A DNA stretch of 41,632 nt, taken from Chlorobiaceae bacterium (lineage in GTDB: Bacteria > Bacteroidota > Chlorobiia > Chlorobiales > Chlorobiaceae). This document shows positions 33,792 through 37,900 of the stretch, piece by piece (within the stretch, counting starts at the first letter, position 1; each line of letters begins with the position of its first letter). Below the pieces are notes generated by a model. That model saw only the letters and a program-made list of their open reading frames with translations, was not told the origin of the DNA and made no database searches. The stretch spans positions 17,875 to 59,506 of the forward strand of contig JAAXWP010000008.1 of assembly GCA_013334925.1 (NCBI GenBank). Direction: 5' to 3'. Both the position numbers and the translations under genes were made by a program.

Positions 33792-36368
33792 TCAGGAACG
33801 TTTTTCCTGAGACGATACAGGATGTGTATCGGACTTGATCAGTCCGCCCATCTCCTGGACTGTCTGGACATAAGTTGCTTTAATAACCCGATTCCAGCTG
33901 TCATGCTCAGGCCACTCTCCCCTGCGCGAACGGTCGTTGAGATGACTGGCCAGAACGAAAAGCCGGTTAGCACCCATGCTTGCCGCTGAGCCCTTGAGCG
34001 TATGCGAGATTTTTTCAAAATGTCGCACATTGCCCGCACTCGAGGCTTTCGTGAGTTCTTCGATGAGGTTCTCGGCATCTTTGACAAATACCTCGAACAG
34101 GGACTGCAACAGTTCGTTGTCACTGACCGACTTGAGGCTTCCGATAATGCTGTGATCGAGAACAGCTTCATTCTGGATCGCACTCCAGTTGTCACCATTG
34201 ATTTTTCCGTCAGAATGGACGGCGCGCTCCACGACGACCTGATCGTTTTTACCCGCTCCCCTTTTGAGCCAGCTTGCCAAAGTCGATACCAGTTCGTCTC
34301 TGAAAATCGGCTTGCTGAGGAAATGGTTCATACCGGCCGCCTGAACCTCGATCACGCTTTTCTGATCAGTGTTGCCGGTAAGCGCGATGATCGGTATCTC
34401 GCTGTAGTTCATGAAGCGCCGGAACCCCTCTCCTTTTCTGATGGCACGAGTCGCGTCCACCCCATTCATGACCGGCATCTCCATATCCATCAGAATCAGA
34501 TCGTAATCCTGCTGTTCAAGCTGCATGATGGCCTGCTGCCCATTCTCTGCCTGACCGATCGAACAGCCGTAGTGCTCCAGAATCATGCTCATGAACTTCC
34601 TGTTGGTTTCGTTGTCATCGACAACCAGGATTCGGCTGTTTGAAAGCACCTCCTTATGGTCATTCGAGATCGAGGGAGTTTCCGAGAAAAAGTAACGCTC
34701 CAGCACCTTGCCGATCTCCTTTTTCTTCAGCGGTTTGATCAGCACCTCGTTCATCCCGCAGGCAGCTGCCCGAGGCAATGCATCCGCCTCGGGAAGAGCC
34801 GTTATACCGACAATCGGAACTGTTGTGCAGTGCCTCGCCAGTGAAGGATCGATATCCAGCGACTGTCGCATGAGGTTTACTGCAACATCGCCAGGAAGAA
34901 CTGGCATCTCGAAATCCATGAAGATCAGGTCATAACTGGCTTTCGCAACCAGTTCGAGTGCCTGCTTTCCATTTTCTGCCTGGTCTATGGTAAAATCCCA
35001 TTCAGAGATGAATCTGGTGAGTAACAGGCGGTTGCTGACCTGGTCATCGACGATCAGGATCCGTTTGTTTTTCAGTATCTCCCGCTTTATGTCGTTGGCG
35101 GTTTTCGAGGTATTGTAAGCCGGCAGACGGATGATGAACTCAGTCCAGTGCCCCTCTTCGGAATCGCAGGTAATGCTGCCGCCAAACGAGTTGATGACCC
35201 TGCGGCAGAACGACAACCCCAACCCGTTTCCACCACTTTTACCGAACGTGTAGAAGCGATCAAAGATAACTTCGCGTTTTCCGGACGGGACTCCAGGTCC
35301 GGTGTCACGGATGCGAACGTAATTGGCCGTGATTCCTGTCTGTGTGGTTATCTCGATACTGAACCCTGGCTTGCCTTTATAATAGAGCGCGTTCTTTATC
35401 AGATTGAACAGCACATAGATGAACAGATCCTTGTCACCAAGAAAGTCAAAGGTATCCGCAGTTTTCTCGACAATCAGCTTCCTGTCACCGCTGTCATCGT
35501 AACCATAACTCGCCAGGGCGGCATCGATGGTGCTTTTGACAGAAAGTTTCTTGAAACTGCTGGTATCCATAAGACCATCGTGAAGCGTCGCCAATATGGA
35601 GTCGATGATCTTGTTGCCTCTTTTGATCGTTGCCAGCCCCTCATCGATAACATCATGAATGCCGATGAGAGATGCATAGCTGATGTCGAATTTCTGCTGT
35701 TCATCATTGGTGAGCGGCTTGTCCGGAATGATGGACTGAACCGTACTCATCGCGTGGGTAATGGAGCTCAGCGGATTCCTCATCTCATGTGCGATGCTTC
35801 CACTCAGACTCCGCATCAGGGATATCCTGGTCTGATGAGCGGCCTGACGTCTGTAGTTGGCAAGCAATCCGCCCACAAGAGCAAAAAGATAGGCAGGAAT
35901 ATACTCCAGACGGAAATAGGCATAAGAGACATAGCCATCCGTCGCGTATACGACGATATAAGCCATCACGAAACCGACAAACGTGTAGAAACAGATGAAT
36001 ACCCAGTCGTTAACAATGAGTATCAGCAAAAAAAGACAGGCCATCGACGACATCGCCCAGGTTACCGACCAATCATTTTTCAGCAGCATGTAATGAAAAA
36101 AGAATGGAATCAGTACCGGCACGGAAAACACAAAATACAGGGGAAACAGGTCTTTCGCCTTTTTTGGCAAATGCCGGTAAAGCAGCCAGGGCAAACTGAT
36201 AACTGCCTCGGCGAGCCGCAACTTCAGGTTTTCATATGGTTGCGGGATCAGATATTTCCAGACGATATAAAAAAGAGGATAACCGAATGTCCCGAAAAGT
36301 CCTATGATCGGAAGATTCGGTTCGGCATGCTCGACAATAGCGTTAATTCTCTGTTTCAGGGGTGACAT
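33792..36368 (-). CDS. cqsS: CqsS-like quorum-sensing hybrid histidine kinase with two REC domains and an HPt
   Basis: 858 aa. Residues 1-180 form a six- or seven-helix membrane sensor that follows remembered Vibrio CqsS closely (HAEPNL, IPQPYENLKLR, MLLKNDWSVTWAMSSMA). The kinase follows: H194 in GSIAHEMRNPLS, N-box NLIKNALYYKG, and G-boxes RDTGPGVP and GNGLGLSFC. REC1 covers about 435-555 (phospho-acceptor D485 in FMDFEMP), REC2 about 575-700 (D628 in LMDMEMPVMNG), and HPt about 740-850 (H789 in EKISHTLKGSAASMG). Vibrio CqsS relays through the separate protein LuxU; here the HPt is built in. W104 and S107 of the V. cholerae ligand pocket are kept at the same numbers; position 170 is Ala (Cys in V. 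cholerae). ATG at 36368 is preferred to TTG at 36380. Divergent from the synthase gene. The output target is not in the window. Confidence 0.9.
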   Translation of the reverse strand: MSPLKQRINAIVEHAEPNLPIIGLFGTFGYPLFYIVWKYLIPQPYENLKLRLAEAVISLPWLLYRHLPKKAKDLFPLYFVFSVPVLIPFFFHYMLLKNDWSVTWAMSSMACLFLLILIVNDWVFICFYTFVGFVMAYIVVYATDGYVSYAYFRLEYIPAYLFALVGGLLANYRRQAAHQTRISLMRSLSGSIAHEMRNPLSSITHAMSTVQSIIPDKPLTNDEQQKFDISYASLIGIHDVIDEGLATIKRGNKIIDSILATLHDGLMDTSSFKKLSVKSTIDAALASYGYDDSGDRKLIVEKTADTFDFLGDKDLFIYVLFNLIKNALYYKGKPGFSIEITTQTGITANYVRIRDTGPGVPSGKREVIFDRFYTFGKSGGNGLGLSFCRRVINSFGGSITCDSEEGHWTEFIIRLPAYNTSKTANDIKREILKNKRILIVDDQVSNRLLLTRFISEWDFTIDQAENGKQALELVAKASYDLIFMDFEMPVLPGDVAVNLMRQSLDIDPSLARHCTTVPIVGITALPEADALPRAAACGMNEVLIKPLKKKEIGKVLERYFFSETPSISNDHKEVLSNSRILVVDDNETNRKFMSMILEHYGCSIGQAENGQQAIMQLEQQDYDLILMDMEMPVMNGVDATRAIRKGEGFRRFMNYSEIPIIALTGNTDQKSVIEVQAAGMNHFLSKPIFRDELVSTLASWLKRGAGKNDQVVVERAVHSDGKINGDNWSAIQNEAVLDHSIIGSLKSVSDNELLQSLFEVFVKDAENLIEELTKASSAGNVRHFEKISHTLKGSAASMGANRLFVLASHLNDRSRRGEWPEHDSWNRVIKATYVQTVQEMGGLIKSDTHPVSSQEKRS

Positions 36369-36670
36369 TCTCTTGTTCAAATCGCTTTGTCGTCTCTACT
36401 CAGCCCTATCCGCACAAAAAATGGCAAGGCATGTTCAAATAATTCAAAAACTCAACCAATGATATTTTCAGTGTAATTCATCGATAAAATAAACGTAATA
36501 AACCTTTCCCGGCATCATTAGATTTCTCAGTTATAACATAACTGATTTGAAAGAACAAAACCCTCATTTAATATTAGAATAATTAAAGGGAATTTTCAAT
36601 CCATAATTTATCAATAAACCAAATAAACAACTTTCCATCACATTATCAACAATAAATACAATTTATCATC
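36369..36670. promoter_or_regulatory. Divergent cqsS-cqsA control region with an 8-3-8 dyad
   Basis: About 300 bases, strongly AT-rich compared with the flanking genes. The dyad TCAGTTAT-AAC-ATAACTGA at 36527-36545 lies near the middle and is a candidate operator. No convincing SD precedes the synthase ATG. No sRNA-like transcript unit could be assigned. Confidence 0.45.
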
Positions 36671-37900
36671 ATGTTACCCCAAAATCAGTATCGCAGTATC
36701 GTAACACCGGTATTTCCCGATTTCATCGAGCAACGACTTCAGAAATGCGATGAGGAAATTTTCAGACCCAGAAAAAACAGGAAACCTCTCGTTCTCGGAA
36801 ACTGTCTTCCGAACAGCAGTTCCATCATGCTTCAAAGCAACGACTACCTGAACATCTCGAATCATCCCGACATCAGAAACGCACAGCTGGATGTGTTGTC
36901 CAGAATGAGCCGGGAACCAGTGATGTCTGCGGTGTTCCTGCATGAAAACAGCGACAAGAGTCTGTTCGAGAACAGGATGGCCGGGTTCGCCGGATTTGAA
37001 AGCGCCATACTCTGCCAGTCCGGCTGGGCAGCAAATGTCGGGCTCATGCAGGCTATCGCCGACAGCACCGTTCCGGTGTATATCGATTTTTTCACTCACA
37101 TGTCACTCTGGGAAGGCATAAAAGGTTCTGGAGCAACACCTTACGCCTTCCGCCACAACGATCCGGGACATCTTGAACGTCTTATTCTGGAACATGGACA
37201 GGGTATTGTACTGGTCGACTCTCTCTACAGTACCATGGGCGACATTTCACCCCTCAGGGAGATCGTTGGCATCGCCAATCGACATGCCTGTGTCATGGTG
37301 GTTGATGAATCCCATTCTCTCGGAACTTATGGCACGAATGGATCCGGACTGGTCAACGAATGCGGATTGACCGGTCAGGTTCATTTCATTACAGCCAGTC
37401 TCGCCAAAGCGTTTGCCGGACGTGCCGGCATCATTCTGTGCCCGGCAAAATTCTCGAAGTATTACCCGTACATGGCCTTCCCGGCTATCTTCAGTTCCAC
37501 GCTGCTTCCGCATGAAATTGCCGGTCTGAACGCAACGCTCGATGTTATCAGAGCAGGAGATAATCGCAGAAAAGAGCTCCACGAAAAATCCCGTCATTTC
37601 AGGGAGGGTCTTTCTGCACTTGGTTACAATATTGTCAGTCAATCCCAGATCGTATCTATCGAGGGCGGACTTGAATCCGACACAGAACTGCTACGTGACG
37701 CTCTTGAAGAAAGAAACGTTTTCGGTTCGGTATTTCTTGCGCCTGCAACGCCAAAAACCAGGTCACTCATGCGTTTTTCACTGAACAGCGATCTTCGCAT
37801 GGAGGAACTTGATTATGTGCTCAATGTTTGCGAAGAAATTCGTGATGAAATAGGCATGTGGAACTGGAAATCAACCAGAAGGAAACGCAATGACCAATAA
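36671..37900 (+). CDS. cqsA: CqsA-like autoinducer synthase (PLP-dependent)
   Basis: 409 aa alpha-oxoamine synthase-type enzyme. It follows remembered V. cholerae CqsA nearly throughout: [61 protein letters not shown], then [15 protein letters not shown] with the PLP lysine K246, then [13 protein letters not shown] and [12 protein letters not shown]. In Vibrio this enzyme condenses an acyl-CoA with S-adenosylmethionine to an amino-ketone that becomes CAI-1 (3-hydroxytridecan-4-one). A related enzyme, LqsA, is found in Legionella. The [12 protein letters not shown] and STLLPHE stretches favour CqsA over 8-amino-7-oxononanoate synthase or KBL. The divergent sensor gene next door supports this. 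Acyl-chain preference cannot be read. Confidence 0.92.

Follow-up and report, generated by a model that had tools for sequence, protein, structure and literature searches.

A CqsA/CqsS-family gene pair of a Chlorobaculum genome and the partner enzymes of CqsS-type kinases in green sulfur bacteria

The cqsA1/cqsS1 pair and its products

The 41,632-nucleotide stretch of DNA analyzed here (the window), from contig JAAXWP010000008.1 of a Chlorobiaceae bacterium, carries two genes, cqsA1 and cqsS1, that resemble the quorum-sensing (QS) synthase and receptor genes of Vibrio; positions given without a contig or locus name are window coordinates. An earlier note, made from the sequence alone, had described a divergent pair ∼300 bases apart, consisting of a pyridoxal phosphate (PLP)-dependent synthase matching CqsA and a membrane kinase whose first 180 residues match CqsS, and had supposed the host to be a green sulfur bacterium (GSB). 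This layout was recovered, with both open reading frames present on opposite strands and an AT-rich intergenic region of 290 bp between them (36381..36670). The host genome (G000) comprises 2.73 Mb in 101 contigs and belongs to the same GTDB genus as C. thiosulfatiphilum DSM 249 (G020), so the supposed GSB can be named a Chlorobaculum.

The product of cqsA1 (36671..37900, plus strand; 409 aa) is a PLP-dependent alpha-hydroxyketone (CAI-1-type) autoinducer synthase, whose PLP lysine K246 (37406-37408, plus strand) aligns with K236 of Vibrio cholerae CqsA. It scored 615.7 bits against the NF005526 model "alpha-hydroxyketone-type quorum-sensing autoinducer synthase" (cut-off, 428), while the sister-family models stayed under their own cut-offs (BioF, 214 against 426; serine palmitoyltransferase [SPT], 190; KBL, 170 against 460). 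The top PDB matches were V. cholerae CqsA structures (3hqt/2wk8; E value, ∼1e-117), the next family following at 1e-39, and identity to V. cholerae CqsA was ∼50% over 377 aa. Among the nine acyl-pocket residues listed for that enzyme (PMC3285556), alignment showed six to be kept in CqsA1 (V32, F79, I263, F264, P348, and A349) and three to be changed (H30 to P, F257 to Y, and C346 to L). In the synthase tree (quick search; supports are Shimodaira-Hasegawa-like approximate likelihood ratio test values), CqsA1 fell inside a single clade of GSB CqsA (support, 99), neighbored by CqsA from Rickettsiales-type metagenome-assembled genomes (MAGs) (99) and then by Vibrionaceae, with the KBL/BioF-like paralogues of the host forming a far outgroup. 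Thus, a KBL or BioF identity was ruled out by model scores and tree alike, and the predicted product of CqsA1 is an alpha-amino/alpha-hydroxy ketone. The closest CqsA relatives outside the GSB were found in Rickettsiales/alphaproteobacterial MAGs (L101-L106; 54-58% identity), where a CqsS-type kinase lies beside cqsA on the same strand in L101, L103, L104, L105, and L106.

The partner gene cqsS1 (33792..36380, minus strand) encodes an 862-aa six-helix CqsS-type hybrid histidine kinase (HK); its listed start is TTG, the ATG at codon 5 (36368) being the likelier one. With the kinase domain excluded from the query, residues 2-189 matched Vibrio CqsS (tblastn E value, 3e-31; 35% identity), identity to V. 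harveyi CqsS was ∼33% across the sensor domain (35814..36377, minus strand), and the AlphaFold model of this domain has six helices (predicted local distance difference test score, 91). The sensor domain also grouped with Vibrio CqsS in the sensor tree. An unrelated kinase N terminus was thus ruled out by the tblastn match, the V. harveyi identity, and the six-helix model, and both halves of the earlier assignment stand. Sequence search found no solved structure for a CqsS1-type sensor domain or for the AfsA profile considered below, and comparison of the sensor fold with PDB structures gave no convincing match. After the sensor, the Pfam order is HisKA-HATPase-REC-REC-Hpt, that is, a kinase, two receiver (REC) domains, and a histidine phosphotransfer (Hpt) domain, with all four phosphorelay residues present on the minus strand, namely, H198 (35787-35789), D489 of the first REC (34914-34916), D632 of the second (34485-34487), and H793 of the Hpt (34002..34004). 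Since the second REC and the Hpt lie beyond the extent of the ∼680-aa Vibrio CqsS, the domain order suggests that CqsS1 is a self-contained phosphorelay in one protein.

In V. cholerae CqsS, the C3 head group is read by W104 and S107 and gated by F160, F162, and F166, and tail length is set by C170 (PMC3376566). By alignment, CqsS1 keeps W104 (as W108; 36057-36059), S107 (as S111; 36048-36050), and F162 (as F166), while F160, F166, and C170 correspond to Y164, G170, and A174, respectively (all minus strand). The three kept residues lead us to predict a CAI-1-like head group, and Ala and Gly at the C170 and F166 positions a roomy pocket tolerant of long tails. We are fairly confident that CqsA1 and CqsS1 form a genuine CqsA/CqsS-family module of Chlorobaculum; the pair would belong, as a single branch, to a larger family of receptors with likely alternative synthases.

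Distribution in the host and in Chlorobia

The earlier note had also proposed that the pair be looked for in other Chlorobi genomes. Among the 98 Chlorobia genomes surveyed, CqsA above the NF005526 cut-off occurred in 30, and 114 CqsS-type sensor matches were distributed over 46; wherever the contig extends that far, the sensor adjoins CqsA in GSB loci, with few exceptions. Among 394 Bacteroidota genomes searched at an E value of 1e-6, no CqsS-type receptor was detected outside Chlorobiaceae. Such genes have been reported before: cqsA/cqsS homologues were listed in Chlorobium and Prosthecochloris (PMC5289986 in 2017, citing Tiaden 2010), an adjacent cqsA/cqsS pair was placed at a conserved Prosthecochloris locus (PMC10158934 in 2023), and Chlorobia sensors had been assigned to the CqsS cluster by clustering in 2016, in a paper that also had a working fusion of CqsS to the Rv1625c cyclase (PMC4821796). 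In view of these papers, the proposal that the pair adds a new, phylum-distant branch to this signaling family does not hold. The window pair extends the list of a published kind, and the new part is the wider pattern of partners.

The host itself carries two complete CqsA/CqsS pairs, of which the second is interrupted by a contig break. A second CqsA (CqsA2), 71% identical to CqsA1, is encoded at the left end of C67 and a second HK-REC-REC-Hpt CqsS-type kinase at the right end of C62; the two ends overlap exactly over 127 bp, a stretch unique in the host genome, and joining them yields a divergent pair ∼304 bp apart. Because the overlap links the C67 synthase to the C62 receptor, a CqsA2 lacking a receptor was ruled out, as was partnership with the receptor on C77, whose slot holds AfsA and an oxidoreductase. 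Beside the second cqsA on C67 is a cholesterol-dependent-cytolysin-like gene (L039:2701-4128, minus strand; Thiol_cytolysin, 282 bits; C-terminal domain, 113 bits).

In total, the host has seven CqsS-type kinases, the highest number among the Chlorobia genomes searched. Beyond the two pairs, one is on C77, three lie in tandem, and a further one is on C74; the first of the tandem kinases (L163:7592-10114, plus strand) is an orphan CqsS-type kinase in which Asn replaces the phosphoacceptor His. Five of the seven Hpt domains in the host lie inside CqsS-type kinases. Elsewhere in the class, the CqsS beside an intact CqsA in G037 (L058:9587-12183, plus strand) is split in two frames, possibly reflecting a receptor-less signal maker or a sequencing error, and G006 (L197) appears to have lost the synthase, since the upstream 1.8 kb of contig beside its receptor, which is 74% identical to CqsS1, holds no CqsA.

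Alternative partner enzymes, an exchangeable slot, and position 107

The C77 kinase of the host is preceded on the same strand by an AfsA-family gene (113.8 bits to the PF03756 hotdog domain; cut-off, 24) and then a flavin adenine dinucleotide (FAD) amine-oxidase-like gene. PF03756 was found in 28 genes from 27 Chlorobia genomes, and 27 of these genes have a CqsS-type sensor domain within 2.5 kb, the remaining one being near a contig end. The order AfsA-FAD oxidoreductase-CqsS-type kinase is constant, and the gene ends usually overlap. In G071, where AfsA and receptor are on split contigs, no sequence overlap between them was found, so that the link is only presumed there. C. tepidum TLS is probably among the genomes with this operon; we take G019 to be the C. 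tepidum genome, and it had no CqsA above the cut-off. The modeled AfsA has a C-terminal hotdog fold that resembles FabZ and acyl thioesterases in Foldseek comparison. A search for AfsA homologues on plasmids found none.

Two kinds of methyltransferase also accompany these receptors. A class-I methyltransferase gene occurs in 8 of the 98 genomes and adjoins a CqsS-type kinase in 7 of them, upstream of it in three Chlorobaculum genomes and downstream in four others; the copy in G026 is broken and lies at a contig end, with a candidate kinase on a different contig. Only generic methyltransferase matches were obtained for this enzyme, which do not identify it as PhcB. At 12 loci, a ∼465-aa protein with a C-terminal LCM/TIGR00027 methyltransferase domain (by Pfam for two proteins and by size and position for the others) is directly upstream of ∼830-aa kinases that form a distinct clade on the sensor tree, and one copy has a weak N-terminal thioesterase match. 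On a Paraburkholderia caribensis plasmid, a gap of 27 bp separates a ketoacyl-synthase-III-like gene, another candidate synthase, from the CqsS-type hybrid kinase gene that follows it (L265:4906-8547). Gammaproteobacterial CqsS/LqsS-like kinases that follow radical-SAM or YcaO genes were also seen (L278, L279, and L282). AfsA with its oxidoreductase, the class-I methyltransferase, and the hotdog/LCM enzymes are most likely candidate alternative makers of acyl-derived signals.

One Chlorobaculum locus, marked by a SnoaL/CaMKII-association-like gene, has a slot between this marker and the kinase. The slot holds AfsA and the oxidoreductase in most Chlorobaculum, including the host, a methyltransferase in G005, G010, and G016, and a divergent CqsA in G001, G008, G017, and G020. 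The four kinases beside the slot CqsA form one clade (support, 99) nested in the AfsA-paired sensor clade, and the four CqsA sequences sit beside CqsA1 on the synthase tree, in conflict with the sensor tree. The simplest reading of the two trees would be that CqsA replaced AfsA in the slot and the receptor stayed.

The sensor residue equivalent to S107 of V. cholerae follows the partner. It is Ser in all 77 CqsA-paired receptors compared (29 from GSB and 48 from Vibrionaceae/Rickettsiales), Trp in the 28 AfsA-paired and 7 methyltransferase-paired receptors, and Ala or Cys in the 12 LCM-paired ones; the four Chlorobaculum receptors beside the slot CqsA lie within the Trp clade and carry Ser. 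Four sensor columns separate the CqsA-paired from the AfsA-paired set, and at position 107 alone is each set fully fixed to a residue of its own. All Chlorobia and CqsA-paired receptors that were compared have Trp at the W104 position, and there is more variation at the C170 position. Among the more distant gammaproteobacterial receptors sampled, position 107 varies and W104 is not always kept. The alignment is suggestive of a change at residue 107 that goes with the partner enzyme. Extra Chlorobaculum receptors with Ser at 107 and no CqsA (L178:6376-8592, L182:10496-12652, and L196:1590-3752) adjoin AfsA- or methyltransferase-paired ones and may be hydroxyketone eavesdroppers.

Reading of the pattern and comparison with known systems

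In the mechanism proposed here, CqsA would make a hydrophobic alpha-amino/alpha-hydroxy ketone from acyl-CoA, which would exit the cell and bind the six-helix membrane pocket of CqsS. Ligand binding would shift the kinase/phosphatase balance, and phosphate would pass from H198 to D489/D632 and H793 within CqsS1 and then to a response regulator. As to a LuxU/LuxO-type output, the host has ten strong sigma-54-activator domains and a single short stand-alone Hpt (C25, 29255-29467; 107-aa frame), which might act like LuxU as a relay for Hpt-less receptors. More broadly, we regard it as quite possible that the six-helix CqsS-type kinase of Chlorobiaceae is an exchangeable platform through which several acyl-derived signals are used in quorum sensing. 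The AfsA/FAD-oxidoreductase/kinase operon of 27 genomes would then be an unreported QS system and the two methyltransferase types two more, with CqsA having taken the AfsA slot in one Chlorobaculum lineage, where the replacement of Trp by Ser at the head-group position would have retuned the receptor. Several results weigh against our main reading of the pair and its wider family. The sensor tree offers only two independent contrasts between CqsA and another partner. As a sign test needs six, the correlation of residue and partner cannot reach significance, even though both contrasts show the predicted residue. Moreover, the AfsA proteins score 34 bits against the ScbA/BarX butyrolactone equivalog, far short of its cut-off of 200, so that their product is not predicted, and no output of the LuxU/LuxO/Qrr or LqsR type could be recognized in the host genome, where LuxU/LuxO orthology was not tested.

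The alternative with the most weight, which we think doubtful but well worth considering, is that the residue-107 pattern reflects shared ancestry and not ligand matching, as most rows come from two deep clades with the two contrasts just mentioned and orphan receptors have S, W, A, T, or C at this position. Set against shared ancestry are the Ser of the four CqsA-paired sensors within the Trp clade, the full fixation of this column alone to different residues in the CqsA- and AfsA-paired sets, and the fact that mutagenesis in V. cholerae had already pointed to position 107 (PMC3376566). It also seems unlikely that the AfsA/oxidoreductase, methyltransferase, and LCM genes, instead of making signals, are regulated targets that serve, e.g., in the tailoring of membrane lipids or pigments. 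The lack of a known product, the remoteness of these AfsA homologues from characterized butyrolactone synthases, and the CqsS-type kinases found without an enzyme partner would fit such a role, whereas nearly all AfsA genes of the class are tied to a CqsS-type kinase in an overlapping operon, the bona fide synthase CqsA fills the same slot in four Chlorobaculum genomes, the AfsA hotdog fold is that of acyl-thioester enzymes, and PhcB/PhcS provides a precedent for methyltransferase/kinase QS (PMC10653808). Quite improbable is a lipid or metabolite role for the acyl-ketone, with a CqsS-like kinase that senses membrane state and a pairing due to co-regulation only: the alpha-oxoamine synthase superfamily of CqsA does include lipid makers such as serine palmitoyltransferase and no output pathway was found in the host genome, but the hydroxyketone equivalog score of CqsA1 is far above all sister families, the ligand-reading residues of V. 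cholerae are kept in all CqsA-paired receptors, and the pair stays adjacent across GSB with few exceptions.

If the platform model is true, GSB, with the tractable model C. tepidum probably among them, would have a second chemical language and possibly a third and a fourth, and a receptor would have changed its synthase partner in place, with a single residue named as candidate determinant. This wider pattern bears on the statement made in 2023 that CAI-1 is the sole QS system found in GSB (PMC10158934). A literature search that left most subscription papers outside its reach found no report of the AfsA, methyltransferase, or LCM partners, the slot exchange, or the residue-107 pattern.

Elsewhere in the window, an Rfam scan found two tRNAs and no other RNA family, and a long low-complexity repeat with (TH/Q)HSS(L/F)(I/V) units in one frame (40448-41101) overlaps the end of a thioesterase gene.

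Close known systems include the published cqsA/cqsS of Chlorobium and Prosthecochloris, the same adjacent pair in the same bacterial family; in the portions available, those papers mention neither two pairs in one genome nor any pairing of CqsS-type receptors with AfsA, a methyltransferase, or LCM (PMC5289986 and PMC10158934). The Vibrio CqsA/CqsS system has in common with the window pair adjacent genes, a ∼50% identical synthase in which the PLP lysine and most residues of the acyl pocket are retained, and a six-helix sensor that keeps W104, S107, and F162. It differs in that the window genes are divergent, CqsS1 adds a second REC and its own Hpt to the ∼680 aa of CqsS in the Vibrio loci fetched, the pocket has Gly for F166 and Ala for C170, Chlorobia genomes have up to seven CqsS-type receptors, and a LuxU-LuxO-Qrr output was not identified in the host. 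Legionella LqsA/LqsS/LqsR similarly combines an alpha-hydroxyketone synthase with a six-helix kinase, but has a separate LqsR regulator, none of which was identified in the host. Ralstonia PhcB/PhcS is a precedent for a methyltransferase and a sensor kinase serving a methyl-ester QS signal (PMC10653808). The likeness here is one of enzyme/kinase pairing. Streptomyces AfsA/ScbA shares the AfsA hotdog family (PF03756) with the Chlorobia AfsA, which scores below the ScbA/BarX cut-off and is paired with an FAD oxidoreductase. The receptor in Chlorobia is a membrane kinase, whereas the Streptomyces gamma-butyrolactone receptor is a cytoplasmic protein of the TetR type.

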